Program-made: the position numbers and the translations under genes
Origin: a virus
Reading direction: 5' to 3' (one strand)
Virus record (IMG/VR): IMGVR_UViG_3300017697_000110
Location: 1 to 22,460 of that record
DNA length: 22,460 nucleotides
In this document: positions 1 through 22,267 of the stretch, in pieces
How positions within the stretch are numbered: position 1 is the stretch's first letter
Layout: every line of letters starts with the position of its first letter
The notes under the pieces: model-generated
Database searches by the model: none
What the model was told of the DNA's origin: nothing
What the model saw: the letters and a program-made list of their open reading frames with translations, nothing else

Positions 1-234
1 AATCGTGAGGCTTTGGCAACGGTTGTAGCTTATGTGGTAAAAATGGGCCCACAATGTTATAACGATAAGTCAAGGTATGGAGAAAAACCCTGGTGTCAAG
101 AAAAACAATGGGTTTTAATAGGGCGTTACTCTGGCTCTAGGTTTAAATTGGAGGAAGGTGCAGAGGTTCGCATCATCAATGATGATGAAGTGATTGCCAC
201 CATACTCGATCCAGATGACATAGTGAGTTTATAA
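1..234 (+). CDS. GroES-like co-chaperonin (Cpn10), 5' end outside window
   Basis: The open frame runs from base 1 without a start, so this is the C-terminal 77 residues of a longer protein; the TTG at 13 is more likely an internal Leu codon. The visible part follows the GroES barrel pattern: a strand like TVVAYVVKMGP (GroES: GxVVAVGxG), a loop with PWCQEKQWVLIGRYSGSRFKL (GroES: VGDxVLFxxYSGxxxK), and a final EVRIINDDEVIATI, matching the EYLILxExDILAVI end of the family. The GroEL-binding mobile loop would lie upstream of the window. The expected role is to cap the host GroEL ring and help fold virion proteins, as T4 gp31 does for its capsid protein. Its place directly before scaffold and capsid genes fits. 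The family call is by eye. Confidence 0.62.
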   Translation, partial: NREALATVVAYVVKMGPQCYNDKSRYGEKPWCQEKQWVLIGRYSGSRFKLEEGAEVRIINDDEVIATILDPDDIVSL

Positions 235-1178
235 TGAATGAACAAGAAAACACTCAAACAATTCAGCCAGAGGTTGAAGAGCTAGAGGTACAGGTAGTAG
301 ATCAAGTTGACGAGCAAACAGGACAATCTGTTTCCTCAGATGATGAATTAGAAAATTATACGAAAGGCGTTTCTAAAAGAATCAACAAGCTCAACGAAAG
401 AAATAGAATGGCAGAAGAAAAAGCTGCAAGACTTGAACAAATGCTGGCCCAGAAAGAAATGGAAACAGCAAGCATGTATCAAGTGCAACAACAGACTAGA
501 GATCAGTTGCTTGTTAAAGAAGAAGAGGCACTTGTGGCCAAGGTAAACCAAGCAGATGACTTGTATAAGAAAGCTATACAAGCTGGTGACGCTGAATTGA
601 TAAGCAAAGCTGATACGCTTAAAAGCGATTTAAGTATTCAAAAAGAAAAACTTAAAGTAGCAAAAAGCCAAGCCGAGCAACAAAATTTTCAAAATCCGCA
701 AGCCGTGCAACAGCCAATGCAACAGGCAGTGCAGCAAAATCAAGAAACACCGCCAGCAACCAGAGAGGCAAAAGCCTGGCATGAAAAAAATTCTTGGTAT
801 GGCGATCAATCTGATCCAGATAATTGGCAGGCATCGCAATTTGCATATTTTACGCATTACAATTTAATTAACGAAGGTTATGAGGCAGACTCAGATGAAT
901 ACTATGAGCAGCTTGATAACCGAGTATCAAAAGTTTATCCAGATCTAGTATCTGGGCAAAGTGTCGAGCAATCAGAAGGTAGACCCGCTGTGCAAAGAGT
1001 CGCCTCCACCTCTGTCGGAGGACGACAAAAAACACAAGGCAAAAAGAACGGTGTAACTTTTTCTAAAACGGAAGTTGAGCGTCTCAAAGGATTGAAACCA
1101 CACAATATGTCGGAAGACGCGTGGTTAAAATCTGTTGCTAAAGAAAAACAAAAAATAGCCAACAGGGAGGCAAAATGA
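234..1178 (+). CDS. Capsid scaffolding-like protein
   Basis: This 314-residue protein starts inside the upstream stop (TAATG), implying translational coupling. Residues about 40-165 are rich in Lys, Glu, Gln and Ala with heptad-like spacing, so a long coiled coil is likely, followed by a Gln-rich linker. Residues about 180-240 hold an aromatic segment (AWHEKNSWYGD ... SDEYYEQLDNRVSKVYPDL) resembling the W-N-W-G / SDEYYE-D-R-P pattern of scaffold proteins in marine podoviruses. The basic C-terminus could bind capsid protein. No protease motif is seen. The predicted role is to guide procapsid assembly and leave before or during DNA packaging. Lack of an N-terminal delta domain in the capsid protein downstream fits a separate scaffold. 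Confidence 0.68.
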   Translation: MNEQENTQTIQPEVEELEVQVVDQVDEQTGQSVSSDDELENYTKGVSKRINKLNERNRMAEEKAARLEQMLAQKEMETASMYQVQQQTRDQLLVKEEEALVAKVNQADDLYKKAIQAGDAELISKADTLKSDLSIQKEKLKVAKSQAEQQNFQNPQAVQQPMQQAVQQNQETPPATREAKAWHEKNSWYGDQSDPDNWQASQFAYFTHYNLINEGYEADSDEYYEQLDNRVSKVYPDLVSGQSVEQSEGRPAVQRVASTSVGGRQKTQGKKNGVTFSKTEVERLKGLKPHNMSEDAWLKSVAKEKQKIANREAK

Positions 1179-1648
1179 CCGAAGAACAAGACAACACTAC
1201 CAGAAAATCCCGTGAATCCGAGAATCACGCTAATAACACTCGAAGAAAACCATGGACGCCAGTAAGAAAACTTGAAACTCCAGAACCACCAGAAGGATAC
1301 GAATATCGTTGGATAAGAGAATCCATGTTGGGCCAGGAGGACAGAAGTAACGTAAGCAAAAGATTGCGAGAAGGTTGGGAACTTGTAAGAGGGACTGATT
1401 TACCACAAGAATTTGCATTGCCTACTTTGGACGAAGGAAGACATACTGGCATTGTATATAATGATGGACTACTTTTAGCAAAAATTCCTGTCGAGACGAA
1501 ACAAGAGCGTAATGCTTACTATGAGTCTCAAACGGCTAGAACCAAAGAGGCATTGGACAATAACGCGTTTAATGAATCCAGAAGGGACAGTCGCTATGTA
1601 CAGTATGATGCAAAAAGGGAGTCTAACGTTACTTTTGGGAAAAAGTAA
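1175..1648 (+). CDS. Conserved phage protein between scaffold and head genes, unknown function
   Basis: This 157-residue hydrophilic protein overlaps the scaffold gene stop (ATGA) and has a good ribosome site, GGGAGG at 1165-1170. The N-terminus (1-40) is polar and probably disordered. The middle holds EPPEGYEYRWIRESMLG and then a basic helix ending LREGWELV, followed by GLLLAKIPVE and a C-terminus NVTFGKK. I recall proteins of this layout next to capsid genes in marine phages, but no biochemical function is known to me. It has no signal peptide, membrane segment or catalytic motif. Position suggests a head-assembly or minor head role; this is inference. Confidence 0.7.
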   Translation: MTEEQDNTTRKSRESENHANNTRRKPWTPVRKLETPEPPEGYEYRWIRESMLGQEDRSNVSKRLREGWELVRGTDLPQEFALPTLDEGRHTGIVYNDGLLLAKIPVETKQERNAYYESQTARTKEALDNNAFNESRRDSRYVQYDAKRESNVTFGKK

Positions 1649-1674
1649 CAACCACAACAATAGGAGAATTTTAA

Positions 1675-2262
1675 ATGGCTAATAAAGATAGCGCATTTGG
1701 ATGCAAACCTGTTCGTATGATGGGTGGAGCACCCTATAACGGTGGACAATCACGTTATAGAATTGCAAGTGGAGCTACAACACCTATATTCCAAGGAGAC
1801 TTGGTTACTCAGCTTACAGCTGGGGTTATAGGAAGACACGCCGCGACTGGAACCGTTCCAATTGTCGGAGTGTTTAATGGTGTACGTTACACTGACCCAA
1901 CCACAGGCGAGCAAGTTTTTAAAAACTACTATCCTGGCAGCGTTTCTGCTAGTGATATTTTTGCTTACGTTATTGATGACGCAAACGTCATATTTGAAGT
2001 CCAAGCAGACGATACCTTCCCGGTAGCGGATCTGTTCGGTAACTTTGATGTTGTCGAAGGCTCACCAGTAGGCGACACTAAGTCTGGAAGATCTAATGCA
2101 GAGCTAGACGTAACAACCGGTGCTACGACCGCAACGTTACCGCTCAAGTGTATTGACATCTCCCAGGATCCCGATAACGATGACGTAGCATCATCCAACA
2201 CCAATGTACTATGTGTGATTCAAAACCACATCATGGGACAAAAAGGTGCTGGCTTAGCATAA
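1675..2262 (+). CDS. Probable head decoration / minor head protein
   Basis: The gene encodes 195 residues and has an AGGAG ribosome site about 8 bases before the ATG. It sits between the scaffold-like region and the major capsid gene, the usual place for decoration or cement proteins. The sequence is rich in Gly, Thr, Val and Asp with short alternating hydrophobic stretches, pointing to a beta-rich fold. The N-terminus carries GCKPVRMMGGAPYNGG, a segment I associate with virion proteins of marine phages. No transmembrane or enzyme motif is seen. A capsid-surface role is inferred from position and composition; it could also be an unrelated head-assembly factor. Confidence 0.6.
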   Translation: MANKDSAFGCKPVRMMGGAPYNGGQSRYRIASGATTPIFQGDLVTQLTAGVIGRHAATGTVPIVGVFNGVRYTDPTTGEQVFKNYYPGSVSASDIFAYVIDDANVIFEVQADDTFPVADLFGNFDVVEGSPVGDTKSGRSNAELDVTTGATTATLPLKCIDISQDPDNDDVASSNTNVLCVIQNHIMGQKGAGLA

Positions 2263-2272
2263 GGAGTAAATA

Positions 2273-3190
2273 ATGGCTATATCAAGAGCTCAGCTAGCTA
2301 AAGAGCTAGAACCAGGTCTAAATTCATTATTTGGTCTTAACTATGATGAATACGATCGTGAATACGAAGAAATCTTCTCTATAGAAGATTCAAGTCGCGC
2401 ATTTGAAGAAGAGGTATTAATTACCGGTTTCGGATCTGCGCCTACGAAAACTGAGGGTCAAAGTGTAAACTTCGATCAAGCATCTGAAAGTTTCAGTGCG
2501 CGTTATACCCACGACACAGTGGCGTTAGCGTTTGCTTTAACAGAAGAGGCTATCGAAGATAATCTCTATGACTCTTTAGGAAAAAGATATGTCAAAGCAT
2601 TGGCGAAATCTATGGCTAACACCAAAGAGATCAAAGGTGCGGATGTGTTGAACAACGCTTTCTCATCCAGTTTTACTGGCGGAGATGGTGTTTCTCTAAT
2701 TAACACTGCTCACCCACTTGCTGGTGGTGGAACAGCTGCTAACAGAGCAACAACTATGGCCGACCTTAATGAAACTTCATTAGAGGACGCTTTAATTGAC
2801 ATCTCTACTTTCACAGATGACAAAGGATTAACAATCTCTGTGCAAGCTGACAAACTAATCGTGCCACCACAATTAGTATTTGTTGCTGACAGAATTTTAA
2901 ATTCTAATCAGAGAGTAGGAACATCTGATAATGACTTAAACGCTATTAAGAACACTGGTGTTCTTCCTGGCGGTTATTCAGTAAATCATTATCTAAATGA
3001 TCCGGATGCTTTCTTCATCTTAACTTCTGTAACAGCACAAGGCGAAGGCCTTAAAATGTTCCAAAGAACTGGCATGGAAACTTCCATGGAACCAGACTTC
3101 TCAACTGGAAACATTCGTTACAAAGCTCGTGAAAGATATTCGTTTGGTTTCTCCGATTGGAGAGGCGTATATGGATCACAAGGTGCATAA
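2273..3190 (+). CDS. Major capsid protein (HK97-fold, Mu gpT-like type)
   Basis: This 305-residue protein has a strong ribosome site (AAGGAG, 2261-2266). Residues about 70-125 match the E-loop and spine-helix region of phage major capsid proteins, with ARYTHDTVALAFALTEEAI followed by a long helix through LAKSMANTKEIKGADVLNNAF. Later segments (INTAHPLAGGG; LVFVADRILNSNQRVG; MFQRTGMETSMEPDF; RYSFGFSDWRGVYGS) follow the order of the Mu gpT-like capsid family. The N-terminus lacks a long delta domain or protease, consistent with a separate scaffold gene upstream. It should form the icosahedral shell. A strong terminator 45 bases after the stop suggests this is the last gene of the head transcript. 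Confidence 0.86.
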   Translation: MAISRAQLAKELEPGLNSLFGLNYDEYDREYEEIFSIEDSSRAFEEEVLITGFGSAPTKTEGQSVNFDQASESFSARYTHDTVALAFALTEEAIEDNLYDSLGKRYVKALAKSMANTKEIKGADVLNNAFSSSFTGGDGVSLINTAHPLAGGGTAANRATTMADLNETSLEDALIDISTFTDDKGLTISVQADKLIVPPQLVFVADRILNSNQRVGTSDNDLNAIKNTGVLPGGYSVNHYLNDPDAFFILTSVTAQGEGLKMFQRTGMETSMEPDFSTGNIRYKARERYSFGFSDWRGVYGSQGA

Positions 3191-3235
3191 CTCGAACGTT
3201 TAGAAATACCGTTTATAACTCAAGTATTTCAAATT

Positions 3236-3261
3236 AAGGGCCCTCCAGGGCCCTTTTTTTT
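3236..3261 (+). terminator. Rho-independent terminator after the capsid gene
   Basis: A perfect 6-bp GC stem, GGGCCC (3238-3243) with loop TCCA and GGGCCC (3248-3253), is followed by eight T residues (3254-3261). Two A residues before the stem can pair with the first Ts. It lies 45 bases after the capsid stop and just before a promoter-like site, so it should separate the head block from the accessory cassette. Confidence 0.9.
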
Positions 3262-3296
3262 GGCCTAAATTAATTACAAATTAAGTGTATAAATTG

Positions 3297-3325
3297 TTGT
3301 ACTTTTGTGCATAATTGTGCATAAT
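3297..3325 (+). promoter_or_regulatory. Candidate sigma-70 promoter for the accessory cassette
   Basis: TTGTAC (3297-3302) and CATAAT (3320-3325) are separated by exactly 17 bases, which suits a bacterial housekeeping sigma factor; the -10 box matches 5 of 6 consensus bases but the -35 box only 3. A start near 3332 would give a 5' leader of about 40 bases to the ATG at 3371, with GGAG at 3361-3364 as ribosome site. It lies directly after the terminator. The same layout recurs at 22275-22303. Confidence 0.55.
3305..3325. repeat. Two tandem 11-bp repeats overlapping the promoter
   Basis: TTGTGCATAAT occurs at 3305-3315 and again at 3315-3325, sharing one base, giving a 10-bp period, about one helix turn. 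The second copy contains the putative -10 box. Same-face repeats over a promoter are typical of operator sites for small dimeric repressors; which protein binds is unknown. Confidence 0.5.
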
Positions 3326-3370
3326 AGGTATGTGGGAATTGAAATTAAAAATAAAAAAACGGAGAAAAAT

Positions 3371-3625
3371 ATGACTGTCAATATAATTGAAGAAATCAAC
3401 AAAGCTGGCTTTACAGCTTTCCAACACCCTGGAGAGGGTATCAAGATCAGCTGCGAAGACGGCAAAGACGCTGGGATCTACTACCCAGATGATTGCCCGG
3501 AGTTTGACATCTACGACCAAGATCCCTGGATCAACCCAGAGGTTGTTAAAGTCTGCAAAGACAATGGTTACGAAGTTGACTGGCAAGATCCTGGTACTTT
3601 AACTGTTTACAAGGAGGTGGCGTAA
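3371..3625 (+). CDS. Small acidic protein of unknown function, first gene of accessory cassette
   Basis: I place the start at the ATG at 3371 (84 residues) because it follows GGAG with six-base spacing; a longer frame from 3305 would begin inside the promoter repeats. The protein is acidic and Asp/Tyr/Pro-rich, with segments HPGEGIKIS, GIYYPDDCPEFDIYDQDPW and an ending DWQDPGTLTVYKEVA. No signal peptide, membrane segment or metal site is obvious. It overlaps the next gene by one base (TAATG), preceded by a strong site AAGGAGGTGG at 3611-3620. I do not recognise a characterised family; small proteins of this style occur in phage and plasmid accessory regions. Confidence 0.7.
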   Translation: MTVNIIEEINKAGFTAFQHPGEGIKISCEDGKDAGIYYPDDCPEFDIYDQDPWINPEVVKVCKDNGYEVDWQDPGTLTVYKEVA

Positions 3626-4203
3626 TGACTATGACTAGAGAATTTTATATCCCAAAGGGATCTAAAGAAATAAAGGCTGCAAAAACAGACGCGGTAGCTT
3701 ACGTTGAGGATTGGGAGTGCGGGACCAAGTACACGGCCATGGTGTTCGGCGGCAAGAGATCTAAATATGACAAGTATTACGGTTTCAAAAACAAAGAGGC
3801 CAGAGACAATTATGTGATTAAGTATTTCACAGATCAAGAAAATGCAGCTCTTGCTAAAAAGAAACGTGCTGAACAAGCGAAAACGCAAGCCAAAGAAAAT
3901 CAAGCAAACTACCAAGTGGGTGATATTCTTGTTTCAAGTTGGGGTTACGATCAAACCAACATTGATTATTACCAAGTAATTGAGAGAACAGCTAAAATGG
4001 CCACCATTCAAAAAATTTGCAAAGAGTTTTTAGATTCTGGTTATCCTAGCGAAGATAAAGTGATCCCTCTTAAAGATTCTTTTGTTGGCAAGCCTAAGAA
4101 AAAGAAAATTGGGACTTACGGTATTACGATAAGCAGTTATGAGACTGCAAGTCTTTGGGACGGCAAACCCGACTATGAAACTGCTGCTGGTTGGGGTCAC
4201 TAA
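3625..4203 (+). CDS. Accessory protein with VGDILVSSWGYDQTN domain, unknown function
   Basis: This 192-residue protein is coupled to its neighbours by one-base overlaps on both sides. The N-terminal part (about 20-70) has AYVEDWECGTKYTAMVFGG then KYDKYYGFKNKEAR, followed by a Lys/Ala/Gln-rich helix. The second part begins QVGDILVSSWGYDQTNIDYY (about 97-116), a segment I associate with small accessory proteins of plasmids and phages, and ends SLWDGKPDYETAAGWGH. The VGD-W-Y pattern suggests a small beta barrel, but no catalytic residues are evident. It may modulate host or nucleic-acid processes; that is speculation from its position in a non-structural cassette. Confidence 0.7.
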   Translation: MTMTREFYIPKGSKEIKAAKTDAVAYVEDWECGTKYTAMVFGGKRSKYDKYYGFKNKEARDNYVIKYFTDQENAALAKKKRAEQAKTQAKENQANYQVGDILVSSWGYDQTNIDYYQVIERTAKMATIQKICKEFLDSGYPSEDKVIPLKDSFVGKPKKKKIGTYGITISSYETASLWDGKPDYETAAGWGH

Positions 4204-4676
4204 TGATTAAAAAAATATACCTTGATATGGACGGAGTTTTAGCCGACTTCGTTACAGCTGTTGAGGGCCCCGACTATTTGAACGGGCCCTTACACGGCGA
4301 ACAAACCTATGACGATCGCAAGATCGAGTTTACCAACAAGCGTTTGTTCAGAAATATGCCACCGATGCCAGGCATGTTAGATCTAGTTGCCTATGTCAAA
4401 GGATCTGGTTTGCCCTGGGAGATCTTAACTTGCTCTGGCGAGATCAACAGACCTTTGGTTGTGACTGACAAGATCGCCTGGACCAAACAATATGTAGATC
4501 CGCACGTTGTGGTTACGTCTACACTCAAAGGCAAACACAAAGCAATTTTTGCAAGACCTGGACATGTGTTGGTTGATGACAAGAAATCAAACATTGTGGC
4601 CTGGGAAAATGCCGGCGGCATTGGCATCTTGCATGAAACTCCTGCTGGTACTATCAAAAAATTGCAGTCTCTTTGA
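4203..4676 (+). CDS. HAD-family 5'(3')-deoxyribonucleotidase-like phosphatase
   Basis: Starting at the ATG that overlaps the previous stop (TAATG), the protein is 157 residues; an upstream in-frame TTG at 4191 would add four. All four HAD motifs can be placed: motif I LDMDGVLADF with D8 as likely nucleophile and D10 as acid/base; motif II ILTCSG with T76; motif III a Lys in KGKHKAIFA (K111 or K113); motif IV VLVDDKKSN with D125-D126 for Mg2+. The order and length fit the 5'(3')-deoxyribonucleotidase (NT5C-like) family, which dephosphorylates deoxynucleoside monophosphates. In a phage it could balance nucleotide pools or remove a host signal nucleotide. It closes the accessory cassette. The exact substrate cannot be read from the sequence. 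Confidence 0.8.
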   Translation: MIKKIYLDMDGVLADFVTAVEGPDYLNGPLHGEQTYDDRKIEFTNKRLFRNMPPMPGMLDLVAYVKGSGLPWEILTCSGEINRPLVVTDKIAWTKQYVDPHVVVTSTLKGKHKAIFARPGHVLVDDKKSNIVAWENAGGIGILHETPAGTIKKLQSL

Positions 4677-4780
4677 GTTGCTAAAGTAATTCCTTAGTAG
4701 TATCATTTTCTAAATATATTTAATTAGCTTGATGAGGGCCGGTTTACCGGTTTCCATTAATACAAACAAAGGAGTTCATA
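4677..4780 (+). other. Intergenic region with weak promoter-like and hairpin elements
   Basis: This 104-base AT-rich gap separates the nucleotidase gene from the next virion gene. It contains TATATT-like sequence around 4715-4720 without a well-spaced -35 box, and a small inverted repeat CCGG-TTTA-CCGG (4739-4750) with no real T tract. AAAGGAG before the ATG at 4781 is a good ribosome site. A promoter for the structural block is expected here but cannot be fixed by eye. Confidence 0.4.
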
Positions 4781-5497
4781 ATGGCTAATCCACATTTTCA
4801 AAACCAAATCCAATGGGCGGGTAATACCGTTGCAACAAAGGCAAAAAAAGATCAACCGATGTTTATGCCTTATCCATCCGATCAAACACACTATGGTTAT
4901 TTCAATGACTTTATGGTGTATACAGCGGGTGATTGGACAATCACAACAACCGAGGATGGCACGGGATCCGCAACTGAGGCAATTACTTCTGGTGCTGGTG
5001 GCCAGTTTTTAATTACTAACGCGGCTGGCGATAACGATGCTGACTTTTTTAACTTAAAAGGCGAATCTTTCTTAATTGACGGCACAAAAAGAGCTTTCTT
5101 TTCAGCAAGATGGAAAGTCAGCGATGCAACACAATCTGACATAGTTATGGGTCTGCAAATCACAGACACAACACCATTAGCAGCAAGTGATGGCATCAAC
5201 TTTAGAAAAGATGATGGCGATGCACTGCTTGACTTTGTAGTTGAGAAAGATGCAACTGAAACTTTAACAGCAGGCGTAGCTACTTTGGCAGACGATACGT
5301 TTATTACAACATCGTTTTTCATAGATCCAAACGCAGCATTGGTTTATTACTCAATTAACAACGCAGAGCCAGTTGGAGTGGTCAACACCAATCTTCCAGA
5401 TAACGAAGAGTTGACAGTATCTTTTGGTATTCAAAACGGCGCAGCCGCAGCGAAAACCATGACTATCGATTACGTCACAGCTATCGTAGAGAGATAA
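4781..5497 (+). CDS. Beta-rich virion protein, lectin-like sandwich possible
   Basis: The product has 238 residues, preceded by AAAGGAG. After a short polar N-terminus (MANPHFQNQIQWAGN) it has many alternating hydrophobic/Thr strands, for example GYFNDFMVYTAGDWTIT, KRAFFSARWKVSD and AALVYYSINNAEPVG, ending MTIDYVTAIVER. This pattern suggests a concanavalin-like or jelly-roll beta sandwich of about 200 residues, as found in phage decoration or receptor-contact proteins. I recall similar proteins in marine phage structural modules. No signal peptide or catalytic motif is seen. It could coat the capsid, replace part of a tail fibre, or bind cell-surface glycans; the sequence alone does not decide. 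Confidence 0.65.
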   Translation: MANPHFQNQIQWAGNTVATKAKKDQPMFMPYPSDQTHYGYFNDFMVYTAGDWTITTTEDGTGSATEAITSGAGGQFLITNAAGDNDADFFNLKGESFLIDGTKRAFFSARWKVSDATQSDIVMGLQITDTTPLAASDGINFRKDDGDALLDFVVEKDATETLTAGVATLADDTFITTSFFIDPNAALVYYSINNAEPVGVVNTNLPDNEELTVSFGIQNGAAAAKTMTIDYVTAIVER

Positions 5498-5498
5498 A

Positions 5499-5900
5499 AT
5501 GGCAGACGCAGTAACATCTCAAACAATCCAAGACGGTGAGAAAACCGCCGTCTTGAAATTTACAAATGTTTCGGATGGTACCGGTGAAAGTGCAGTCAAA
5601 AAAGTAGATGTTTCAGCATTAGCTAAAAACAGTGCAGGCCAAACCTGCACCAATGTTTCAGTAGCTAGGATTTATTGGGCCACGCGTGGGATGGGAGTAA
5701 ATCTTGAGTTTGATGCTACAACAAATGTTCTTTTAACTGGGTTACCAGCAGATAGCACAGGTGATGAATACTATGATTTATTTACAGCAATACCCAATAA
5801 TGCGGGATCTGGTGTAACTGGAGACATAGATTTGACCACTGTCGCACATTCGAGCGGTGATACTTATTCAATTATATTGGTTTTGAATAAGAATTATTAA
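5499..5900 (+). CDS. Small conserved virion protein, beta-rich
   Basis: This 133-residue protein starts one base after the previous stop. It contains KFTNVSDGTGESAVKKVDVS near the N-terminus, a central IYWATRGMGVNLEFDATTN and a C-terminal PNNAGSGVTGDIDLTTVAHS region with SGDTYSIILVLNKNY at the end. I associate this set of segments with a family found repeatedly in marine phage virion modules. The composition (Thr, Val, Gly, Asp; no membrane segments) suggests an all-beta fold. Its pairing with the 238-residue gene suggests the two assemble together on the particle surface. Function is not established. Confidence 0.66.
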   Translation: MADAVTSQTIQDGEKTAVLKFTNVSDGTGESAVKKVDVSALAKNSAGQTCTNVSVARIYWATRGMGVNLEFDATTNVLLTGLPADSTGDEYYDLFTAIPNNAGSGVTGDIDLTTVAHSSGDTYSIILVLNKNY

Positions 5901-5903
5901 TGA

Positions 5904-6212
5904 ATGGCAGCAACAAAGCCTAGGAAAAAAACTAATCCTATCAAAAAAACGGTAGGCAAAGGCGGTAATTACCGAAAAACCAAGTCTGGAGCAGGAATGA
6001 CCAAAAAGGGCGTTGCTGCATACAGAAAGGCAAATCCTGGATCTAAGCTGAAAACTGCCGTAACAGGTAAGGTAAAAAAGGGTAGCAAGGCTGCTAAAAG
6101 GCGTAAGTCTTATTGCGCAAGATCTCTTGGGCAGTTAAAGAAAAGCTCTGCTAAAACTAGAAACGATCCTAATTCGAGAATTAGGCAAGCAAGAAGAAGG
6201 TGGAAGTGCTAA
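5904..6212 (+). CDS. Very basic small protein, KSYCAR-type family of unknown function
   Basis: The 102-residue product is about one-third Lys and Arg, with no clear ribosome site, three bases after the previous stop. The N-terminus is a Lys-rich tail; the core reads GMTKKGVAAYRKANPGSKLK, then KGSKAAKRRKSYCARSLGQ, and the protein ends RRRWKC. I recall this core as a domain of unknown function (I believe DUF6321) shared by marine phages and some large eukaryotic viruses; the number is from memory. The charge suggests nucleic-acid binding, perhaps packaged with the genome. The two Cys residues could bind metal or disulphide-link, but this is conjecture. Confidence 0.62.
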   Translation: MAATKPRKKTNPIKKTVGKGGNYRKTKSGAGMTKKGVAAYRKANPGSKLKTAVTGKVKKGSKAAKRRKSYCARSLGQLKKSSAKTRNDPNSRIRQARRRWKC

Positions 6213-6574
6213 TGGCAAAAAAATCATCAACCCCAAGCAACGTAACTAACCCTAGCTTATATTCAAGAGTAAAGTCTGAGGCCAAAAGTAAGTTTGACGT
6301 TTATCCGTCTGCTTACGCTAATGCCTGGCTGGTAAAAACTTATAAAAAACGCGGCGGCGGTTACAAAGGCGCAAAAAAAGCAGAAGGAGGCGAAGTGAGT
6401 AATAAAGATTTAAGACCGGTGCCAACTGGCAATAAAGGCCTAGGTAAACTACCTACCAAAGTTCGTAATAAAATGGGATTTATGAAAAACGGTGGCAGTG
6501 TACAGCTCCAGGCTAGAGGTTGTGGCGCAATTATGAACAGCAAGCGCAAACCTACAAAAGTTCCTAGAAGTTAA
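6212..6574 (+). CDS. Basic small protein with YPSAYANAWLVKTYKKRGG domain
   Basis: The start at 6212 overlaps the previous stop (TAATG) and gives 120 residues; an upstream in-frame GTG at 6200 would add four. Residues about 12-50 (SLYSRVKSEAKSKFDVYPSA followed by YANAWLVKTYKKRGGGYKG) form a compact helical module I have seen in phages and algal viruses with no known function. The remainder is Gly/Lys-rich, with KAEGGEVSNKDLRPVP and a C-terminus GGSVQLQARGCGAIMNSKRK similar to glycine-rich tails of other marine phage proteins. It is the second of four basic genes in a row, which points to a joint role, perhaps binding DNA or other virion proteins. Confidence 0.62.
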   Translation: MAKKSSTPSNVTNPSLYSRVKSEAKSKFDVYPSAYANAWLVKTYKKRGGGYKGAKKAEGGEVSNKDLRPVPTGNKGLGKLPTKVRNKMGFMKNGGSVQLQARGCGAIMNSKRKPTKVPRS

Positions 6575-6578
6575 AATT

Positions 6579-6932
6579 ATGGCCATAAGCAGAAGTAGCA
6601 TTGGCAAATCAATAAGCAAGGGATCTAAACCAAAAGGTGGATTGACCAAGTGGTTTAAAGAAGATTGGGTTGACATAGGATCCAAGAAAAAAGGCGGCGG
6701 CTATGCAAAGTGTGGCAGATCTAAACAAAAAGCAGACGCCAAAAGAAAATACCCAAAATGTGTACCAGCTGCAAAAGCTGCAAGCATGAGCAAATTACAA
6801 ATTAAATCTGCAGTCAGCAGGAAAAGAGCAAAGAAACAAGGGGTAGGCGGCAAGCCTACAAACGTTAAAACTTTTGCCGCTAGAGGTGGTAAGATAATCA
6901 AAAGATCTAACATAGGTCTTTACGGAAGATAA
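6579..6932 (+). CDS. Basic Cys-containing small protein, KWFKEDWVDIG family
   Basis: This 117-residue protein begins with a Ser/Lys/Gly tail, then GGLTKWFKEDWVDIGSKKK, a possible zinc-binding pair CGRSKQ ... KRKYPKCVPAAKA (two Cys about 16-17 residues apart), and helical SKLQIKSAVSRKRAKKQG followed by GGKPTNVKTFAARGGK. I recall this layout as a domain of unknown function (possibly DUF5872) that recurs beside the two genes upstream in marine viruses; the number is from memory. With only two Cys in the core a full zinc finger is not certain. The strong positive charge suggests contact with nucleic acid. Confidence 0.6.
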   Translation: MAISRSSIGKSISKGSKPKGGLTKWFKEDWVDIGSKKKGGGYAKCGRSKQKADAKRKYPKCVPAAKAASMSKLQIKSAVSRKRAKKQGVGGKPTNVKTFAARGGKIIKRSNIGLYGR

Positions 6933-6943
6933 TAGGAGTAATT

Positions 6944-7309
6944 ATGAAAGGTAAAGGAACTAAGTACATGGCTAAGGGTGGAAAAACTACTAAGTACATG
7001 TCTAAAGGCGGTCGTTTAGGATATGGTGGAAACAAAGTTGATCCAATGTCTAGGAAACAAAGTTTTATAGACAGTAAAGATAGCGGTCTAAGAAATGTTG
7101 GACGACAAGCTGAAAGAGAGTTAGGTCTTAGAATAAGCAGAGGTCCTGGCATGAAAGCTGGTGGTCCTGTAGGTTCTATGTTTCCTTCTATGCAAAAAGC
7201 TATGAAGGGTACTAAGTACATGGCTAAAGGCGGAGCTGCTTTACAATCTGAAATGAAAGCAAATCCAGGTTTTAGTAACATACCAAAATCTGTAAGAGAT
7301 AAACTGTAA
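6944..7309 (+). CDS. Lys/Gly-rich protein with KYMAKGG repeats
   Basis: The gene has a good ribosome site (TAGGAG, 6933-6938) and encodes 121 residues. The heptapeptide-like unit TKYM(A/S)KGG appears three times, at residues about 6-13, 16-23 and 90-97; the DNA repeats too (ACTAAGTACATG at 6959-6970, 6989-7000 and 7211-7222). Between them lies a more ordered stretch with SRKQSFIDSKDSGLRNVG and AERELGLRISRGPGMKAGG. The C-terminus (NPGFSNIPKSVRDKL) looks like a short helix. Such Gly/Lys repeats recur in marine phage virion proteins, with no known role. It completes the basic gene group; binding to DNA, membranes or polyanions is plausible but unproven. Confidence 0.62.
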   Translation: MKGKGTKYMAKGGKTTKYMSKGGRLGYGGNKVDPMSRKQSFIDSKDSGLRNVGRQAERELGLRISRGPGMKAGGPVGSMFPSMQKAMKGTKYMAKGGAALQSEMKANPGFSNIPKSVRDKL

Positions 7310-7329
7310 AAATATAATAATTAAATATA

Positions 7330-8028
7330 GTGGCGTATTTAATATCAAATATCCCGCAGTTCAAATGCTGGGTAAGAAAAGAGTTTACAGCTAATCATTC
7401 CAATTACCATGGCGAGTATTTGCACGCTTTGGTTATTGCGGTCAATACAATTCCAGATAGATCTCTTTCATTCCAGGTGGTTTTTACTGGCTGTGAAATA
7501 GATGACATGGAAGATGAGCCAAACGTACATGGCGGTGCTATGTGGGCCCGGATGCCAATAGAGGCTCTGGTAGCAGACATACCGTTAGAAGACTGGCCAG
7601 AACCCATGGAAGATCATTTGGCCCAACCCTGGGACTGTCTAAGTCATCATCATTCGGTTATAACCATGGATCGTGTCAGTTCTTCTCCGTGGATCTGCAA
7701 AATAGGTGGCGAGTTTTACACAGGCAAATATTTGTTTACTGTGGATTACACAGAAAATTCAATAGCAGACGATCCGGCTCAACATAAACAATCACATGTG
7801 TTATATTTAACGGACGCTGGTGAGTACACTGGAAATTTTGTAGCATTACCTAATAATAGAGTAAGAGCAACAAACCCTGCTTTGTGGCGTGTAGGCGAAG
7901 GGGCACCGGATTTCATGCCCTCGCAATGGACACATTCAGCGGAACAACATGAGAGCTATATGGATCCAAACATAACGTTTAACAATCTATACGCTCCGGG
8001 AGAAGAAGATGGCGACATCGAACAGTAA
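7330..8028 (+). CDS. Conserved phage structural-region protein, unknown function
   Basis: A GTG start at 7330 gives 232 residues; no clear ribosome site is visible and the 20-base gap upstream is AT-rich. The protein is acidic and rich in Trp, His and Met: segments HALVIAVNTIPDRSLSFQVV, CEIDDMEDEPNVHGGAMWAR, HLAQPWDCLSHHHSVITMDR and GEFYTGKYLFTVDYTE. Clustered His, Asp and Cys could bind metal, but no known catalytic signature is present. I recall homologues at this position, just before the head-tail adaptor gene, in many marine podoviruses. It overlaps the next gene by 20 bases. A particle or assembly role is inferred from position. Confidence 0.7.
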   Translation: MAYLISNIPQFKCWVRKEFTANHSNYHGEYLHALVIAVNTIPDRSLSFQVVFTGCEIDDMEDEPNVHGGAMWARMPIEALVADIPLEDWPEPMEDHLAQPWDCLSHHHSVITMDRVSSSPWICKIGGEFYTGKYLFTVDYTENSIADDPAQHKQSHVLYLTDAGEYTGNFVALPNNRVRATNPALWRVGEGAPDFMPSQWTHSAEQHESYMDPNITFNNLYAPGEEDGDIEQ

Positions 8029-8704
8029 AAACTTTGAACCAGATGTAGCAGAATACATAGAAGAGGCTTTTGAGCGTTGCGGCTTAGAGCTAAGAACTGG
8101 TTACGATCTTAAAACAGCCAACAGAAGTCTGAATCTTATGTTAGCCGAATGGGCCAACAGAGGTTTAAATCAATGGACCATTGCACAAAAAACAGTGGCC
8201 ATGGTAAAAGACACCACGTCTTACAACATTGACAGTACCAACAGCACAGCACCGATTGACGTACTAGATGTATTTATTAGAGAAACTGTCGGCTCTGAGT
8301 CAACAGATCTGCCCATGACCAGGTTAAGCAGAGCTGAGTATTCTCACATTGTTACTAAATCAACCACAGGAAAACCAAATCAATTTTTTATCAATAAGCA
8401 GCTGTCACCGACTATTACAGTTTGGCCTGCTCCAGATAAGTCCAGTGCTTATACGGTTTACATGAATGTATTAACCAGAATGGATGACTCAGATGCAGCA
8501 ACCAACACCCTGGACATGCCTTTTAGGTTTTATCCTTGCTTGGCCGCAGGCCTGGCATATTACATATCTTTAAAAAGAGCGCCAGAAAGAACCGCTATGT
8601 TAAAAGGTTTGTATGAAGAAGAGTTTACCAGGGCCTTATCCACCGATGAGGATAGAGCCTCATTTAGAATATCTCCAGATATTCGGAGTTACAACAACCC
8701 ATAA
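8009..8704 (+). CDS. Head-tail adaptor, P22 gp4-like
   Basis: This 231-residue protein starts inside the previous gene with GGGAG at 7998-8002 as ribosome site. The N-terminal 60 residues form predicted helices (FEPDVAEYIEEAFERCGLEL, then NRSLNLMLAEWANRGLNQWT), matching the start of P22 gp4-like tail accessory factors. The middle is beta-rich (TTSYNIDSTNSTAPIDVLDV) and the C-terminal part holds FYPCLAAGLAYYISLKRAPE, where such adaptors carry a helix contacting the portal. It should bind beneath the portal ring and close the head after packaging. The family call is by sequence pattern. Confidence 0.7.
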   Translation: MATSNSKNFEPDVAEYIEEAFERCGLELRTGYDLKTANRSLNLMLAEWANRGLNQWTIAQKTVAMVKDTTSYNIDSTNSTAPIDVLDVFIRETVGSESTDLPMTRLSRAEYSHIVTKSTTGKPNQFFINKQLSPTITVWPAPDKSSAYTVYMNVLTRMDDSDAATNTLDMPFRFYPCLAAGLAYYISLKRAPERTAMLKGLYEEEFTRALSTDEDRASFRISPDIRSYNNP

Positions 8705-9018
8705 TGGCATTTGCATCTGGTAAACATGCCTACGGTATTTGTGACATCACAGGGTTTCGCTATAAGTTAAAGGACATGAAGAAAACTTGGGACGGACTCC
8801 TGGTGGGCCCAGATCAGTTTGATCCTAAGCATCCACAAATTATGCCTCGGCCCGCACCACTAGATCCGCAGGCCATAAGAAATGCAAGGCCAGAAAAACC
8901 TACAGACAATAATTTCTTTGTGGTTTACTCAAACGTGGGCGATGGAAAACTAGGATCTCAGCTTACAACTTTTAATATAAGTGCTAATATAGGATCAGTT
9001 ACGGTAACAACAACATGA
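8704..9018 (+). CDS. Small conserved head-tail region protein
   Basis: The 104-residue product overlaps the adaptor stop by one base (TAATG) and the next start by four (ATGA). The N-terminal half, AYGICDITGFRYKLKDM then TWDGLLVGPDQFDPKHPQ, is a pattern I have seen in short proteins beside adaptor genes in many podoviruses and siphoviruses; the single Cys suggests no full zinc site. The second half is Pro-rich, then a beta segment NFFVVYSNVGDG, ending in a Thr/Val strand. Function unknown; it may stabilise the connector. Confidence 0.68.
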   Translation: MAFASGKHAYGICDITGFRYKLKDMKKTWDGLLVGPDQFDPKHPQIMPRPAPLDPQAIRNARPEKPTDNNFFVVYSNVGDGKLGSQLTTFNISANIGSVTVTTT

Positions 9019-9662
9019 GTTTTACATATTCAACATTAAAAACAGCGGTCCAGGATTATCTGCAAGTTTCTGAAACGACCTTTACCAATCAACTACCAAC
9101 TTTTATCCAGGAGGCTGAAAACAGAATATTTAAACTTGTTCAGCTGCCGAAACAAAGAAAGAATGTCCAGGGATCTCTTTCTACCAATAATAGGTTTTTG
9201 GCTACACCAACAGATTTCTATGCCCCATTTAGTCTTGCGGTTATCAGCAGCGATACTTACGACTACTTAGACTTTAAACATTCATCGTTTGTAAAAGAAT
9301 ATGCTCCTACCAGCACAACCAGGGGCCAACCAAAATATTATACTTTGTTTGATGATACGGCGTTTGAGGTAGCACCTGTACCAGACGCAGACTATACGGT
9401 AGAATTACATTATTTATATAAACCAGTCTCTTTAACGAGTGGTAGTGACAGCGGTACAACATTTTTGTCTACGGATTATCCAGACGCATTGTTGTACGGC
9501 ACGTTAGTAGAAGGCGCAGTTTTCTTAAAGGAACCGCTAGATGTCGTTGGCCAGTTCGAGGGACGCTTTAAGGAGGCGGTAGCTAGAATGAAAACTCTAT
9601 CAGAAGGTCGTGGCACACGAGACGAATATAGATACGATTTATTACGCACCGGCGTAAATTAG
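9015..9662 (+). CDS. Tail tubular / phage adaptor protein
   Basis: This 215-residue protein has the layout of phage adaptor proteins (T7 gp11-like tail tubular A role): an N-terminal helix YSTLKTAVQDYLQVSE, then FIQEAENRIFKLVQLPKQRK, LATPTDFYAPFSLAVIS and a beta segment TAFEVAPVPDADYTVELHYL. The C-terminal helices include EGRFKEAVARMKTLSE. It would add the next ring below the 8009 adaptor and carry the tail hub. The start overlaps the previous gene by four bases and the stop TAG overlaps the GTG of the next. Assignment rests on motif order. Confidence 0.72.
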   Translation: MSFTYSTLKTAVQDYLQVSETTFTNQLPTFIQEAENRIFKLVQLPKQRKNVQGSLSTNNRFLATPTDFYAPFSLAVISSDTYDYLDFKHSSFVKEYAPTSTTRGQPKYYTLFDDTAFEVAPVPDADYTVELHYLYKPVSLTSGSDSGTTFLSTDYPDALLYGTLVEGAVFLKEPLDVVGQFEGRFKEAVARMKTLSEGRGTRDEYRYDLLRTGVN

Positions 9663-10411
9663 TGATCGAATTAACAAAAGAAGAAAATCAAAACACACCC
9701 CAAGAATCCCTAGAAGGCAAAAAGGTTGCAATCGTTGGCCTAGGGATTAGCCAGGTTGATTTTGCTATTGGCCTGCAAAATGGCCGTGAATGGGATGAGG
9801 TCTGGTGCATCAACTCTGCCGGGGCAACTTACCCGTGCGATAAAATATTTATGCTGGATCCAGCGAGTCGTTTTTTTGATAGTACCGATGCTGGTTTACA
9901 AACCAATGTAATGACAAGTTTACTTAGCAACACAGATGTACCGGTTTTTACCTGCGAGCTTGACGAGAGAGTAAAGAACCCCGTTATGTTTCCAATTAAC
10001 GAGGTTTGCAATGCTACCAAATGCGCTTACTTAAATAACACGGTTGCTTATGCAATAGCTTACGCTTTGTGGAGCAAGGTTGGCAGAATAGATCTATTTG
10101 GCATAGATTTTTCATACAAAGAAAACATGCACTTTGCCGAGGCGGGCCGAGCATGTGTTGAGTTTTGGATCAGCAAGTGCATGGAAAACGACATATTGGT
10201 AGGTATGAGTGGCAGATCTACTGTCCTAGACTCAAACGTACCAGCAACAGAAAAACTCTATGGTTTTCATAGATTAGAAAAACCATTGGTTGCAATACCC
10301 CATGAAGGCAAGTTTATTATTGGCCCTTACGATGAAATAAACAAAGAGTTAGAAAAGCAAGGTTTAAAAATAAATGAGGATGTAGCTCCACCAGAGCCAT
10401 ACAAAGGATGA
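9662..10411 (+). CDS. Rossmann-like enzyme, DUF115/sialyltransferase-like fold possible
   Basis: A GTG start within the previous stop (TAGTG) gives 249 residues. After a polar N-terminus a glycine-rich loop follows a strand: KKVAIVGLGISQVDFAIGLQ (about residues 20-39), then DEVWCINSAGATYPCDKIFM with the acidic segment MLDPASRFFD. A later VGRIDLFGIDFSYKENMHFA resembles the LxGIDF strand of DUF115-type and CST-I sialyltransferase-like proteins, which use nucleotide sugars or phosphorylated substrates. No membrane segment is present. It is an odd enzyme-like member among tail genes and may modify a virion component or host surface glycan; the reaction cannot be assigned. Confidence 0.62.
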   Translation: MIELTKEENQNTPQESLEGKKVAIVGLGISQVDFAIGLQNGREWDEVWCINSAGATYPCDKIFMLDPASRFFDSTDAGLQTNVMTSLLSNTDVPVFTCELDERVKNPVMFPINEVCNATKCAYLNNTVAYAIAYALWSKVGRIDLFGIDFSYKENMHFAEAGRACVEFWISKCMENDILVGMSGRSTVLDSNVPATEKLYGFHRLEKPLVAIPHEGKFIIGPYDEINKELEKQGLKINEDVAPPEPYKG

Positions 10412-10695
10412 ACGTTGACGGACTATTTGAACTAGGACAAATTTCAGTGCATGCCACAGAGAATGGTGGCCACCCACCAGAATTTTGGGCAGCACAAGCA
10501 ACCAAGAAAATTTGTGACATTTCAGACAATGCACCAGAGCATGTAAAACAGCAGGCTCTCGCTTTCCAAAAACAAGTTTATGATGTAATCTTACATAGTA
10601 TTAAAAATGCAATAGAGTCTAAAAATACAACTCTAGTGAATTTGTTAAAAAAACAAGGTCAGAGTGACATGGCTGATATTATTAAGGAGCTATAA
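10408..10695 (+). CDS. Small conserved helical phage protein
   Basis: This 95-residue protein starts four bases before the previous stop (ATGA). After ISVHATENGGHPPEFWAAQA it is largely helical: ATKKICDISDNAPEHVKQQA and LAFQKQVYDVILHSIKNAIE, ending with a polar helix. I recall the HPPEFWA-QATKKI segment in marine phage gene neighbourhoods like this one, without known function. The next gene starts after one base, with AAGGAG inside this gene's end as its ribosome site. It could be a chaperone or a minor virion protein. Confidence 0.66.
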   Translation: MNVDGLFELGQISVHATENGGHPPEFWAAQATKKICDISDNAPEHVKQQALAFQKQVYDVILHSIKNAIESKNTTLVNLLKKQGQSDMADIIKEL

Positions 10696-10696
10696 G

Positions 10697-11125
10697 ATGG
10701 CAATTACATCGGCAATATGCACAAGTTTTAAACAAGAACTTTTGGTTGGAACACATAACTTTACTAACAGCAGCGGCAATTCTTTTAAATTAGCGCTCTA
10801 CACGTCTTCGGCAACTTTGGGTGCTGGCACTACAGCTTTTACCACAACTGGGCAAGCATCTGGGACCAATTACACATCTGGCGGTAGCGCTTTGACAAAT
10901 GTTACTCCCGTTGCCTCTGGAACCACTGCAATCTGTGATTTTGCAGATTTAACATTTAGTAATGCGACTGTGACTGCTAGAGGGTGCATGATTTATAACG
11001 ACACCAACAGCGATAAAGCAGTTTGTGCTATTGATTTTGGTGGCGACAAGACATCTACCGCAGGTGATTTTACGATTGTTTTCCCAGGCGCAACAGCTAC
11101 AGGTGCAATTATAAGATTGGCTTAA
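10697..11125 (+). CDS. Beta-rich minor virion protein
   Basis: I chose the ATG at 10697 (142 residues) because it follows AAGGAG at 10684-10689; a frame starting at 10664 would begin inside the upstream gene. The sequence is Thr/Ser/Gly/Ala-rich and nearly all beta: SFKQELLVGTHNFT, SFKLALYTSSATLGAGTTAF, GTNYTSGGSALTNV, and DFADLTFSNATVTARG, ending FPGATATGAIIRLA. Proteins of this pattern are common in marine phage tail regions; an Ig-like or tail-surface fold is plausible. No function is established. Confidence 0.68.
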   Translation: MAITSAICTSFKQELLVGTHNFTNSSGNSFKLALYTSSATLGAGTTAFTTTGQASGTNYTSGGSALTNVTPVASGTTAICDFADLTFSNATVTARGCMIYNDTNSDKAVCAIDFGGDKTSTAGDFTIVFPGATATGAIIRLA

Positions 11126-11154
11126 TTAAATTTCTATTATGGTAGAATTTAAAA

Positions 11155-13047
11155 ATGCCACTCACCAAAGTTAATTTTAAACCAGGGATCAATAAAGAGG
11201 AGACTGACTACTCAAACGAGGGTGGTTGGGTAGACGGCAACTTTATTCGGTTCAGAAAGGGCCGCGTTGAAAAAATAGGTGGCTGGGAAAAATACAGAAC
11301 CAGCTCTCTTGTTGGATCTCCTAGAGGTTTGCATGCCTGGATTGCATTAGACGGCTCTGAATATCTTGGCATAGGCACAACCAACAAATACTATATTGAA
11401 AACGGTAACGTCTATTATGATGTTACTCCGATTCGCAGATCCTCAACAAATTCAACTACATTCGGGGCCACCAATGGATCCTCAACCATAACAGTAACAG
11501 AAACAGGACATGGAGCTGTCAATGGTGACTTTGTTACTTTTTCAAATGCAGTATCTCTAGGCGGCTTAGTAACTGCCGTGGTTTTAAACCAAGAATATCA
11601 AATTAGCCTGGTCACTGGGACCAATACTTTTGAGATTACGGCTAAAGATACGGACGGCGTAACGGTAACAGCTAACGCAAGTGACTCTGGTAACGGTGGA
11701 TCTGCGACCGATGCTGTGTATCAAATTAATTCTGGCCTGGATGTTTATGTCGATAGCACTGGTTGGGGTGTAAGCACCTGGGGTGCAGGCGGCTGGGGTT
11801 CTGCTACAGCATTGAGTGATACCAACCAGCTTAGATTGTGGACACACGATAACTATGGTGAAAACTTAATTATCAACCCACGCAATGGTGGTATTTACAG
11901 GTGGCTCGAAAGTAATGGCGTGTCTACAAGGGCCCAAGAGCTATCTGGTATCTCTGGAGCCAACAAAGTGCCGACTAAGGCTTTACAAGTAATAACCTCT
12001 GAAACAGACAGACATTTAATTGTTTTAGGCGCAGACCCTTTAAGCGGTGGCTCAAGAACTGGCGTGATAGATCCAATGTTGATTGCATTTAGCGATCAAG
12101 AAAACGAATTGGAGTTTGAGCCACTGAATACCAACTCTGCTGGATCTTTGCGTTTATCAAGTGGATCTTCAATTATTGGTGGCATTAAATCTAGGCAAGA
12201 GGTTTTAATCTGGACAGACACATCTTTATACAGCATGCAGTTTATCGGGCCACCACTTACTTTTGCAGTCAACCTAATTAATGAAGGCGCTGGCCTCATT
12301 GGGCCCAAGGCGTTTGCGAATGGCCCAAACGGCGTTTTCTTTATGTCAAAAAATGCTTTTTACTTTTACAACGGCTCGGTCAAAAAGCTGCCTTGTTCGG
12401 TGCAAGATTATGTATTCGGTGATTTGGATGTCAGCCAGGCGTTTAAATGTTTTGCTGGCCTCAACGAAGAGTTTTCTGAGATATGGTTTTTCTATCCATC
12501 CAACACAGATAACACGGATGAGATCTCAAGATATGTGATTTATAACTATGAAGAAAACTCCTGGAGCATAGGAACCTTAGAAAGATACTCCTGGCTTAAT
12601 TCTGGCATTAATGAAAAGCCACTAGCAGCGGGTGAATCAAGCGACACTAAATATATTTACGAACACGAAAAAGGTGCTAACAATGACAGCAGTTCCATGG
12701 ATAATGTGTTTATAGAATCTGCCGACATAGATATGACGGACGGCGAGAGCTTTGTGTTTCTTAAAAAAATAATTCCGGACATACTGTTTCAAACAGAAAC
12801 AGGCACAAGTCCGACACCAGCTGTAAACGTTGTGGTTAAAAGAAGAGACTTTAATGGCCAGTCTTTATCAACCGATTCAACCACACAGATAGGCACATCA
12901 AGCACTTTTTCAAGTTTAAGAACCAGGACAAGGCAATTTGTATTGCGCTTTGAATCCGATGACGATAACAGTGAATCAGACAGAAAAGATTTTAAATGGA
13001 GGTTGGGAGACACTCGCTTAGACATACAACCATCTGGACGTAGATAA
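11155..13047 (+). CDS. Tail hub / stabilisation protein (P22 gp10 / T7 gp12-like role)
   Basis: This 630-residue protein begins MPLTKVNFKPGINKEETDYS followed by EGGWVDGNFIRFRKGRVEKI, a hallmark start of large tail proteins in marine podoviruses that take the role of P22 gp10 (packaged-DNA stabilisation) or T7 gp12 (tubular B). The rest is repetitive beta structure with propeller-like segments such as HLIVLGADPLSGG, EVLIWTDTSLYSMQFIGPP, GVFFMSKNAFYFYNGSVKKL and RYVIYNYEENSWSIG. Residues about 110-180 hold a Thr/Ser/Gly-rich insert. It should sit below the adaptors and form the tail tube or nozzle. The ATG lacks a clear ribosome site. Confidence 0.72.
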   Translation: MPLTKVNFKPGINKEETDYSNEGGWVDGNFIRFRKGRVEKIGGWEKYRTSSLVGSPRGLHAWIALDGSEYLGIGTTNKYYIENGNVYYDVTPIRRSSTNSTTFGATNGSSTITVTETGHGAVNGDFVTFSNAVSLGGLVTAVVLNQEYQISLVTGTNTFEITAKDTDGVTVTANASDSGNGGSATDAVYQINSGLDVYVDSTGWGVSTWGAGGWGSATALSDTNQLRLWTHDNYGENLIINPRNGGIYRWLESNGVSTRAQELSGISGANKVPTKALQVITSETDRHLIVLGADPLSGGSRTGVIDPMLIAFSDQENELEFEPLNTNSAGSLRLSSGSSIIGGIKSRQEVLIWTDTSLYSMQFIGPPLTFAVNLINEGAGLIGPKAFANGPNGVFFMSKNAFYFYNGSVKKLPCSVQDYVFGDLDVSQAFKCFAGLNEEFSEIWFFYPSNTDNTDEISRYVIYNYEENSWSIGTLERYSWLNSGINEKPLAAGESSDTKYIYEHEKGANNDSSSMDNVFIESADIDMTDGESFVFLKKIIPDILFQTETGTSPTPAVNVVVKRRDFNGQSLSTDSTTQIGTSSTFSSLRTRTRQFVLRFESDDDNSESDRKDFKWRLGDTRLDIQPSGRR

Positions 13048-21818: not shown

Positions 21819-22043
21819 GGACTCGGTGGCCTGGATCATGGCCCCAACAACTTCATAATCTAATTCATATCCCATGTGGGATTCATCGTTGAGGACTATC
21901 TCCAGGTTTCTGGATATAAGTCTTAACAACGCGGCCTGTTGATGCAAGGTAAGTCTGCTGAACAGCTCAATGACTTCCGGCGCCTCAAGCACAGGTTTAT
22001 AAGATTGAGGTTTAGTTTTTTGGGACATAATGTTTTTAAACAT
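21810..22043 (-). CDS. Small helical protein downstream of repressor-like gene, unknown
   Basis: The 77-residue product is translated leftwards and overlaps the stop of the RHH-like gene by one base (TAATG on that strand), so the two are probably co-expressed and coupled; a second Met at residue 6 is a weaker start. After a polar N-terminus the core APEVIELFSRLTLHQQAALL through RLISRNLEIVLND is helical, with a short acidic C-terminus (MGYELDYEVVGAMIQATES). No DNA-binding helix pair, toxin or signal motif is recognised. The gene overlaps the 3' end of the rightward ejection-protein gene by 9 bases. It may assist the upstream regulator. Confidence 0.62.
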   Translation of the reverse strand: MFKNIMSQKTKPQSYKPVLEAPEVIELFSRLTLHQQAALLRLISRNLEIVLNDESHMGYELDYEVVGAMIQATESLD

Positions 22044-22267
22044 TAGATCTTAACAGTAGATCCAGGACCTTCAACGGCAACCCTGTGCTCTTCTCTTGCA
22101 AAAGAATCATGCTTTTTTAACCTTGCATGTTCTTTTTCAATTAAAACTTTTAGCTGATCTATTTTGGATCTGCGTTCCATATCGCATATTTCTTGCAGAA
22201 GATCATAAGTTTTAACATCTACTGCCAAACTTTTTCTCATTTTATTATTTTCGGTGTGTATATCCAT
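22043..22267 (-). CDS. Ribbon-helix-helix DNA-binding protein, probable repressor
   Basis: Using the ATG at 22267 the protein has 74 residues; an upstream ATG at 22294 lies within the promoter palindrome and the third candidate is at 22240. None has a good ribosome site; 22267 sits where the leftward promoter would start transcription, suggesting a leaderless message. Residues 11-18 (RKSLAVDV) form the beta strand, 19-32 (KTYDLLQEICDMER) the first helix, and 34-49 (SKIDQLKVLIEKEHAR) the second helix of an Arc/MetJ/CopG-like ribbon-helix-helix fold; the C-terminus is a charged tail. RHH dimers bind short palindromes, so it should bind the inverted repeat at 22273-22304 and control both divergent promoters. 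Fold by eye; target inferred. Confidence 0.66.
   Translation of the reverse strand: MDIHTENNKMRKSLAVDVKTYDLLQEICDMERRSKIDQLKVLIEKEHARLKKHDSFAREEHRVAVEGPGSTVKI

Follow-up and report, generated by a model that had tools for sequence, protein, structure and literature searches.

A probable hypervariable docking site for accessory genes between the capsid terminator and the next virion gene of a phage related to pelagiphage HTVC023P

The stretch of DNA analysed here (the window) is an IMG/VR virus record of 22,460 bases. The part running from its capsid gene to the gene at 4781 finds DNA matches in HTVC023P, HTVC027P, 023Pt_psg01 and DSL-LC04 by way of the capsid gene, and the lineage is marine and related to pelagiphage HTVC023P. 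After the capsid terminator lie three fused genes (3371-4676), encoding ORF84, ORF192 and a HAD hydrolase, which are followed by the leader of the virion gene beyond them. ORF84 starts 180 nt 3' of the capsid stop. The features of the locus are as follows.

2273-3190, + strand: major capsid protein (MCP) gene, the left border (Pfam PF25209, E=6.7e-15; phrog_371, E=3.7e-24)
3236-3262, + strand: intrinsic terminator of the capsid gene, with a stem at 3236-3255 and a T run; not a feature of the cassette
3268-3337, + strand: promoter/operator-like element that precedes the cassette genes and is conserved where relatives bear cargo; its coordinates come from locus L139, whose sequence matches the window exactly at this place
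3297-3325, + strand: operator-like repeats, TTGTACTTTTGTGCA at 3297-3311 and GTGCATAAT twice, at 3307-3315 and 3317-3325
3371-3625, + strand: ORF84, a small cassette protein with the C-terminal end ...YKEVA
3611-3627, + strand: connector AAGGAGGTGGCGTAATG, a ribosome-binding site plus fused stop/start
3625-4203, + strand: ORF192 (phrog_37844), with an invariant WGYDQTN motif and relatives on conjugative plasmids
4203-4676, + strand: HAD hydrolase resembling 5'(3')-deoxyribonucleotidases, the constant last cargo gene
4717-4780, + strand: 5' leader belonging to the next virion gene and conserved in relatives; contains a hairpin at 4729-4760
4781-5497, + strand: downstream virion gene in a decoration-like position, the right border; named from its position and the label 'cement protein' carried there by DSL-LC04

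A first-pass annotation of this DNA had described a moron-like insert set apart by a strong terminator, its own promoter and a final gap, and had suggested that it may alter nucleotide pools or signalling, or protect against other phages. The terminator is there, and it ranks first among the terminator-like sites found by a terminator scan of positions 1-12,000, but it does not belong to the insert. Inspection by eye, uncounted, of the 200 nt 3' of the MCP stop found a terminator-like hairpin in nearly all relatives listed, those with an empty site included. Hence the terminator is the capsid gene's own and was ruled out as a marker of the cassette. Likewise, the gap of 104 nt before the 4781 gene exists but is the leader of that gene, since relatives with an empty site have the leader too. 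The protein encoded at 4781-5497 has no family match in Pfam or PHROGs. The cargo is placed between two pre-existing regulatory borders, and neither virion operon is interrupted.

The leaders have structures of their own. In the window, 4720-4761 forms a hairpin whose stem varies and whose pairing is kept in six relatives (judged by eye); it is of another type than the leader of an alternative decoration-type gene, which is present in 39 loci (L002 to L084) and has a structured RNA leader with a 9-bp stem and a pseudoknot CTAGG/CCTAG. For this second leader, in a structure hand-drawn from one sequence, 13 of 14 pairs changed on both sides, and 91.9% of cells were paired against 74.3% in shuffles. 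Rfam at the gathering threshold returned no match on the window or on eight loci, which included the alternative-gene leaders tried.

Within the insert, the coupling proposed for the three genes holds, as ORF84/ORF192 and ORF192/HAD each overlap by the A of TAATG. On an own promoter the signs are mixed: a sigma-70 consensus scan found no promoter at 3262-3371, but the promoter-like element at 3268-3337 is conserved before the first cargo gene of cargo-bearing relatives. The non-structural accessory nature of the insert is borne out by close relatives, in which it is present, absent or replaced. Such presence and absence is in keeping with a moron, but the insert is not a textbook one because its terminator is owned by the capsid gene, no + strand terminator-like site in 4676-4780 closes it, and its G+C content is not different (42.9% against 41.9%).

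The frequency of the insert was taken from loci L006-L085 alone, since the loci from L092 onward had been retrieved by a HAD, ORF192 or ORF84 query. For this set, the MCP sampling took the best-ranking 80 out of at least 600, and 79 remained after removal of one duplicate; in all, 11 loci were dropped because they were judged to duplicate the window or one of the other loci (L019, L139, L171-L173, L175, L183, L240, L245-L247). The site is empty in 50 of the 79 loci, holds HAD cargo with both flanks in 7, is cut in 11 and holds other cargo in 11, of which L043, L067 and L085 may be empty sites with an unrecognised next gene. At MCP identities of at least 80% (n=21), there were seven loci with HAD cargo, three with other cargo, five empty and six cut by a contig end, one of which (L010) nevertheless carries the HAD gene. 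No HAD cargo was found at 70-80% (n=10; four other, six empty) or at 60-70% (n=48; four other, 39 empty, five cut). The variation reaches down to near-identical phages. For example, L006, with an MCP identity of 99%, has a single unrelated gene of 82 codons and neither ORF192 nor HAD, and the ten loci with MCP identities of at least 98% and both flanks, the window included, show six arrangements. In one of these ten (L131), a frameshift splits HAD into two ORFs, which may be a sequencing error. The first-pass annotation had set its reading against a cassette kept in place by all relatives; the presence/absence comparison found no such constancy, and a cassette fixed in the lineage is ruled out by the empty, other-cargo and replaced sites.

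The order of the cargo is less free than its content. HAD is the last cargo gene in all 46 HAD-bearing intervals, a count that includes loci retrieved by HAD, ORF192 or ORF84, and it is followed by a gene of the 4781 type in 39, by its alternative in 3 and by a contig end in 4. The gene before HAD changes: ORF192 holds this place in 15 intervals, k3 and k4 in 11 each, a member of the ORF84 cluster in 5 and other genes in the remaining 4. Cluster names are single-linkage, and since ORFs with their first codons in the shared leader can chain, the 'ORF84-cluster' is loosely defined and may contain more diversity than its name suggests. The fixed last place of HAD, the single exchange of the genes upstream and a like array at a second genomic site had been missed by the first-pass annotation. 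A functional pair of ORF192 and HAD, such as an effector and its modifier, with the rest incidental, is quite improbable. ORF192 does stand directly before HAD in the 15 intervals mentioned, and in L176 and L177, loci without a capsid match, they adjoin each other in the opposite order. However, other proteins take its place in the remaining intervals, and most of the distant ORF192 relatives have no HAD match in the fetched stretch.

The HAD protein (157 aa) matches phrog_2643 (E=1.2e-31), a PHROG of the moron/auxiliary class, and scores 24.6 bits against Pfam PF06941, 0.2 bits under the cut-off of 24.8. Elsewhere in the window, the protein of 7330-8028 matches phrog_3704, 'ferredoxin', also of moron class (E=4.1e-31). 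By PDB profile, HAD matches 5'(3')-deoxyribonucleotidases of the mitochondrial and cytosolic kinds, with E as low as 1.6e-7, and the first Foldseek matches of its predicted structure (mean pLDDT 96.3) are 2i7d, at the head of the list with E=3e-7, 3bwv and 2jao (E 3e-7 to 8e-7). The agreement of PHROG, profile and fold upholds the first-pass description of the third protein as deoxynucleotidase-like. The catalytic residues D8, D10, K113, D125 and D126 are invariant in 38 sequences. As judged from sequence and modelled fold, HAD thus resembles 5'(3')-deoxyribonucleotidases with the catalytic residues intact and, by analogy, probably dephosphorylates deoxynucleoside monophosphates. The likeness to PF06941, which includes Dtm of phage PBS1, lies in the catalytic motifs and in the best PDB matches by profile and fold; the cassette protein differs in its length and in its place just below the Pfam cut-off. 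PBS1 Dtm hydrolyses dTMP (PMC12697855).

An ordinary auxiliary-metabolic insert of the moron type, in which HAD is central and recycles or depletes deoxynucleotides or frees phosphate while the small genes are passengers, would fit the constancy of HAD, its PHROG class and the action of its family member Dtm on dTMP. We consider it unlikely, as every intact interval examined has small genes along with HAD and these are replaced faster than HAD is, no HAD is seen at the second site in L242-L244, and no thymidylate synthase of two families was found in six HAD-bearing records, which are incomplete. A role of HAD in uracil-DNA synthesis was rejected for want of positive evidence in the search for the two families. 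Thymidylate synthase PF00303 appeared only in the records of L048 and L061 (G005 and G006), both without HAD, in a small sample of incomplete records.

ORF192, whose confidently predicted structure has a mean pLDDT of 92.6, has relatives in 236 plasmid records, of which 180 are typed conjugative. Four of these plasmids were inspected, and in two (L086, L087) the neighbouring gene is ParB-like or a stabilisation gene. Against the PDB, ORF192 gave no match as a single sequence, two chance-level matches by profile and no fold at E <= 0.001. ORF84 could not be assigned to a family by Pfam, PHROGs (best E=0.25), NCBIfam or PADLOC; the NCBIfam matches were at chance level only. PADLOC recognised none of the three window proteins and gave two weak matches among 54 other cassette proteins, which have few Pfam matches, among them LPD29, DUF2958 and DUF7220.

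Alignments of relatives show that the genes before HAD have been replaced precisely at start codons. For example, the window and L094, L103 and L105 are alike at 13-15 of 60 nt before the HAD start and at 59-60 of 60 after it. The border is clean even though the start overlap differs, ORF192 running into HAD by TAATG and k3 by ATGA. Similarly, L097 and L241 are identical over 70 of 70 nt to the end of k23 and then at 17 of 45, because one continues with ORF192 whereas its counterpart continues with k3. Numerous cassette genes that are unrelated to each other finish with AAGGAGGTGGCGTAATG or a near variant, giving a protein tail of KEVA or KEVV. The connector GGAGGTDGYGTRATG joins a ribosome site to a fused stop/start inside the last codons of the upstream gene. 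Among 63 partly redundant loci with MCP identities of at least 80%, it has 55 copies in 93 kb of cargo and none in 385 kb outside; the window has a single copy, even when as many as two mismatches are tolerated. The wider pattern of GGAGG, any five bases and TRATG has 46 distinct contexts inside cargo and 3 outside; in 44 of the 46 the spacer is TGGCG, TAGCG, ACGCG or TGGTG. At the protein level, a C-terminal EV[AV] is found in 24 of the 54 cassette proteins (hand-reduced from 72 candidate ORFs by removing second copies and the shortest ORFs) and in none of 183 structural proteins (matches covering less than 80% of the query excluded). The connector is common and not universal, since 24 of 62 cargo families have it in at least one member; it is absent at the HAD border.

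Such borders may also arise by plain phage mosaicism, in which illegitimate recombination occurs everywhere and selection spares only intact genes, the connector being a strong ribosome-binding site for small overlapping genes. Selection is known to leave clean gene borders behind, so random recombination with later loss of broken genes can yield them too, which counts against the docking reading; moreover, the connector holds an optimal Shine-Dalgarno sequence at constant spacing. On the other hand, the spacer between GGAGG and TRATG has no known ribosome requirement, yet four five-mers fill nearly all contexts, and the fused structural-gene junctions of the window do not use the connector. 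We regard mosaicism as a possible account, short of an even chance.

Short elements beside shuffled genes have precedents. PeSL are reportedly mobile regulatory cassettes of T4-type phages (attributed to Arbiol, 2010, and Comeau, 2014), with a promoter plus stem-loop between shuffled genes. PeSL, which PMC4503421 cites, resemble the present case in tying short common elements to accessory-gene shuffling among related phages. They differ in that here there is one promoter per array and the joints are ribosome sites lacking a stem-loop: no + strand terminator-like site lies between the three window genes, which overlap by one base. In the Cluster K mycobacteriophages, small non-structural genes carry the SAS (Start-Associated Sequence) repeat GGGATAGGAGCCC 3-7 bp ahead of their start codons, and the repeat was proposed to act in translation initiation (PMC3203893). 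The likeness is a short repeat by the starts of such genes. Unlike the SAS, by which upstream genes need not fuse, the connector lies within the upstream gene's last codons, with stop and start fused and gene replacement seen, and the SAS consensus is not found in it. Antiviral hotspots of P2/P4-type phages likewise offer a fixed locus with changing accessory genes in a conserved genome, but they reportedly hold whole multi-gene systems (PMC9122126), whereas the present site holds single small genes in one operon and no recognised defence system. The main text of PMC9599517, which covers HTVC023P-type genomes, contains neither 'hypervariable' nor 'nucleotidase', and the titles and abstract openings of the partial literature searched hold no description of a capsid-side docking site.

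The cassette promoter recurs elsewhere in these genomes. Of ten long contigs checked, three also have the connector at a distance from the capsid site. L250 and L251 have an array behind a 2OG-Fe(II) oxygenase gene, close to where the tail genes end, and in L252 a connector-bearing array lies at the contig end. A profile built from 16 cassette promoters (27 reduced to 16) detected the arrays at the second site with E-values between 3e-12 and 3e-10 in L242-L244, L250 and L251; the first three carry ORF84 (98%) there, with k3 next in L243. Elsewhere it matched L178 (4e-9), L174 (4e-7) and L215 (4e-6) and, more weakly, L132, L134 and L135 (about 8e-5) and L192 (0.003). L132, L134 and L135 lack a capsid match and have a HAD gene (55-56%) behind the same type of promoter, and in L132 and L135 the genes preceding HAD end in KEVA/KEVV or EEVA. 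A serine-recombinase-like gene lies beside the array in L174 (2590-3384; phrog_95, E=6e-38), and such genes adjoin the arrays of L176 (2502-3158) and L192 (6938-7735), as judged by eye. Three further features lie at the right end of the window.

22043-22267, - strand: candidate Arc-like (ribbon-helix-helix-like) regulator; weak match to phrog_3180 (E=0.02); start re-set from 22294, as homologues align from about 22267
22288-22302, - strand: TTGTATATATGTGCA, before the regulator gene, resembling the cassette operator site
22339-22460, + strand: start of the 2OG-Fe(II) oxygenase gene; the second cassette site of relatives is directly 3' of this gene

The window ends within the oxygenase gene, so its own second site would lie beyond it. 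Upstream of the regulator gene, the promoter profile was equalled by 2 of 500 dinucleotide shuffles in the window, by 1 in L243, by none in L250, L251, L213 and L219 and by 11 in L258; in L257, 101 shuffles scored as high and the test fails. The profile gave no score upstream of the regulator in L259 and L260, genomes without HAD cargo, or upstream of 21 structural genes of the window. Part of the signal may be general promoter likeness, and the regulator gave only three chance-level PDB matches. The repeats at 3297-3325 may act as an operator, to which TTGTATATATGTGCA could link the Arc-like gene; these sequence likenesses are only suggestive of a tie between the Arc-like protein and the cassette promoters.

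The presence and absence of the insert, the replacement at gene borders, the common connector, the promoter element at two sites and the intact HAD residues are best explained, with a probability of about 0.7, by a hypervariable docking site for accessory genes, of which 3262-4676 would be one allele, carrying small genes and a constant HAD. Because the site is bounded by the capsid terminator on one side and by the leader of the following virion gene on the other, cargo can come and go with both virion operons left intact. The cargo operon, with one to several interchangeable small genes, many of them joined by the connector, and then the constant HAD gene, would be transcribed from its own promoter/operator-like element and translated as a coupled string. 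The connector puts the ribosome-binding site of the next gene in the last codons (...KEVA) and fuses stop to start (TAATG). Small genes are gained, lost and swapped, possibly by recombination using connectors and flanks, while HAD and the flanks stay; the Arc-like regulator may control the arrays. More tentatively, and against the odds as we see them, the arrays could be plug-in single-gene cassettes, with a 17-nt connector doubling as a recombination joint for in-frame, in-operon swaps, at least two docking sites, one operator, one Arc-like regulator, and capsid-site arrays ending in the same nucleotidase. The fast turnover of whole genes agrees with a probable role of the small proteins in host takeover or counter-defence.

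Accessory genes turn over fast, and how single genes are swapped in compact phage genomes without breaking operons is poorly understood. A defined connector makes its role in gene exchange testable. Since the docking site, connector and promoter can be read from the sequence, such arrays may be mined by pattern for small phage effectors.
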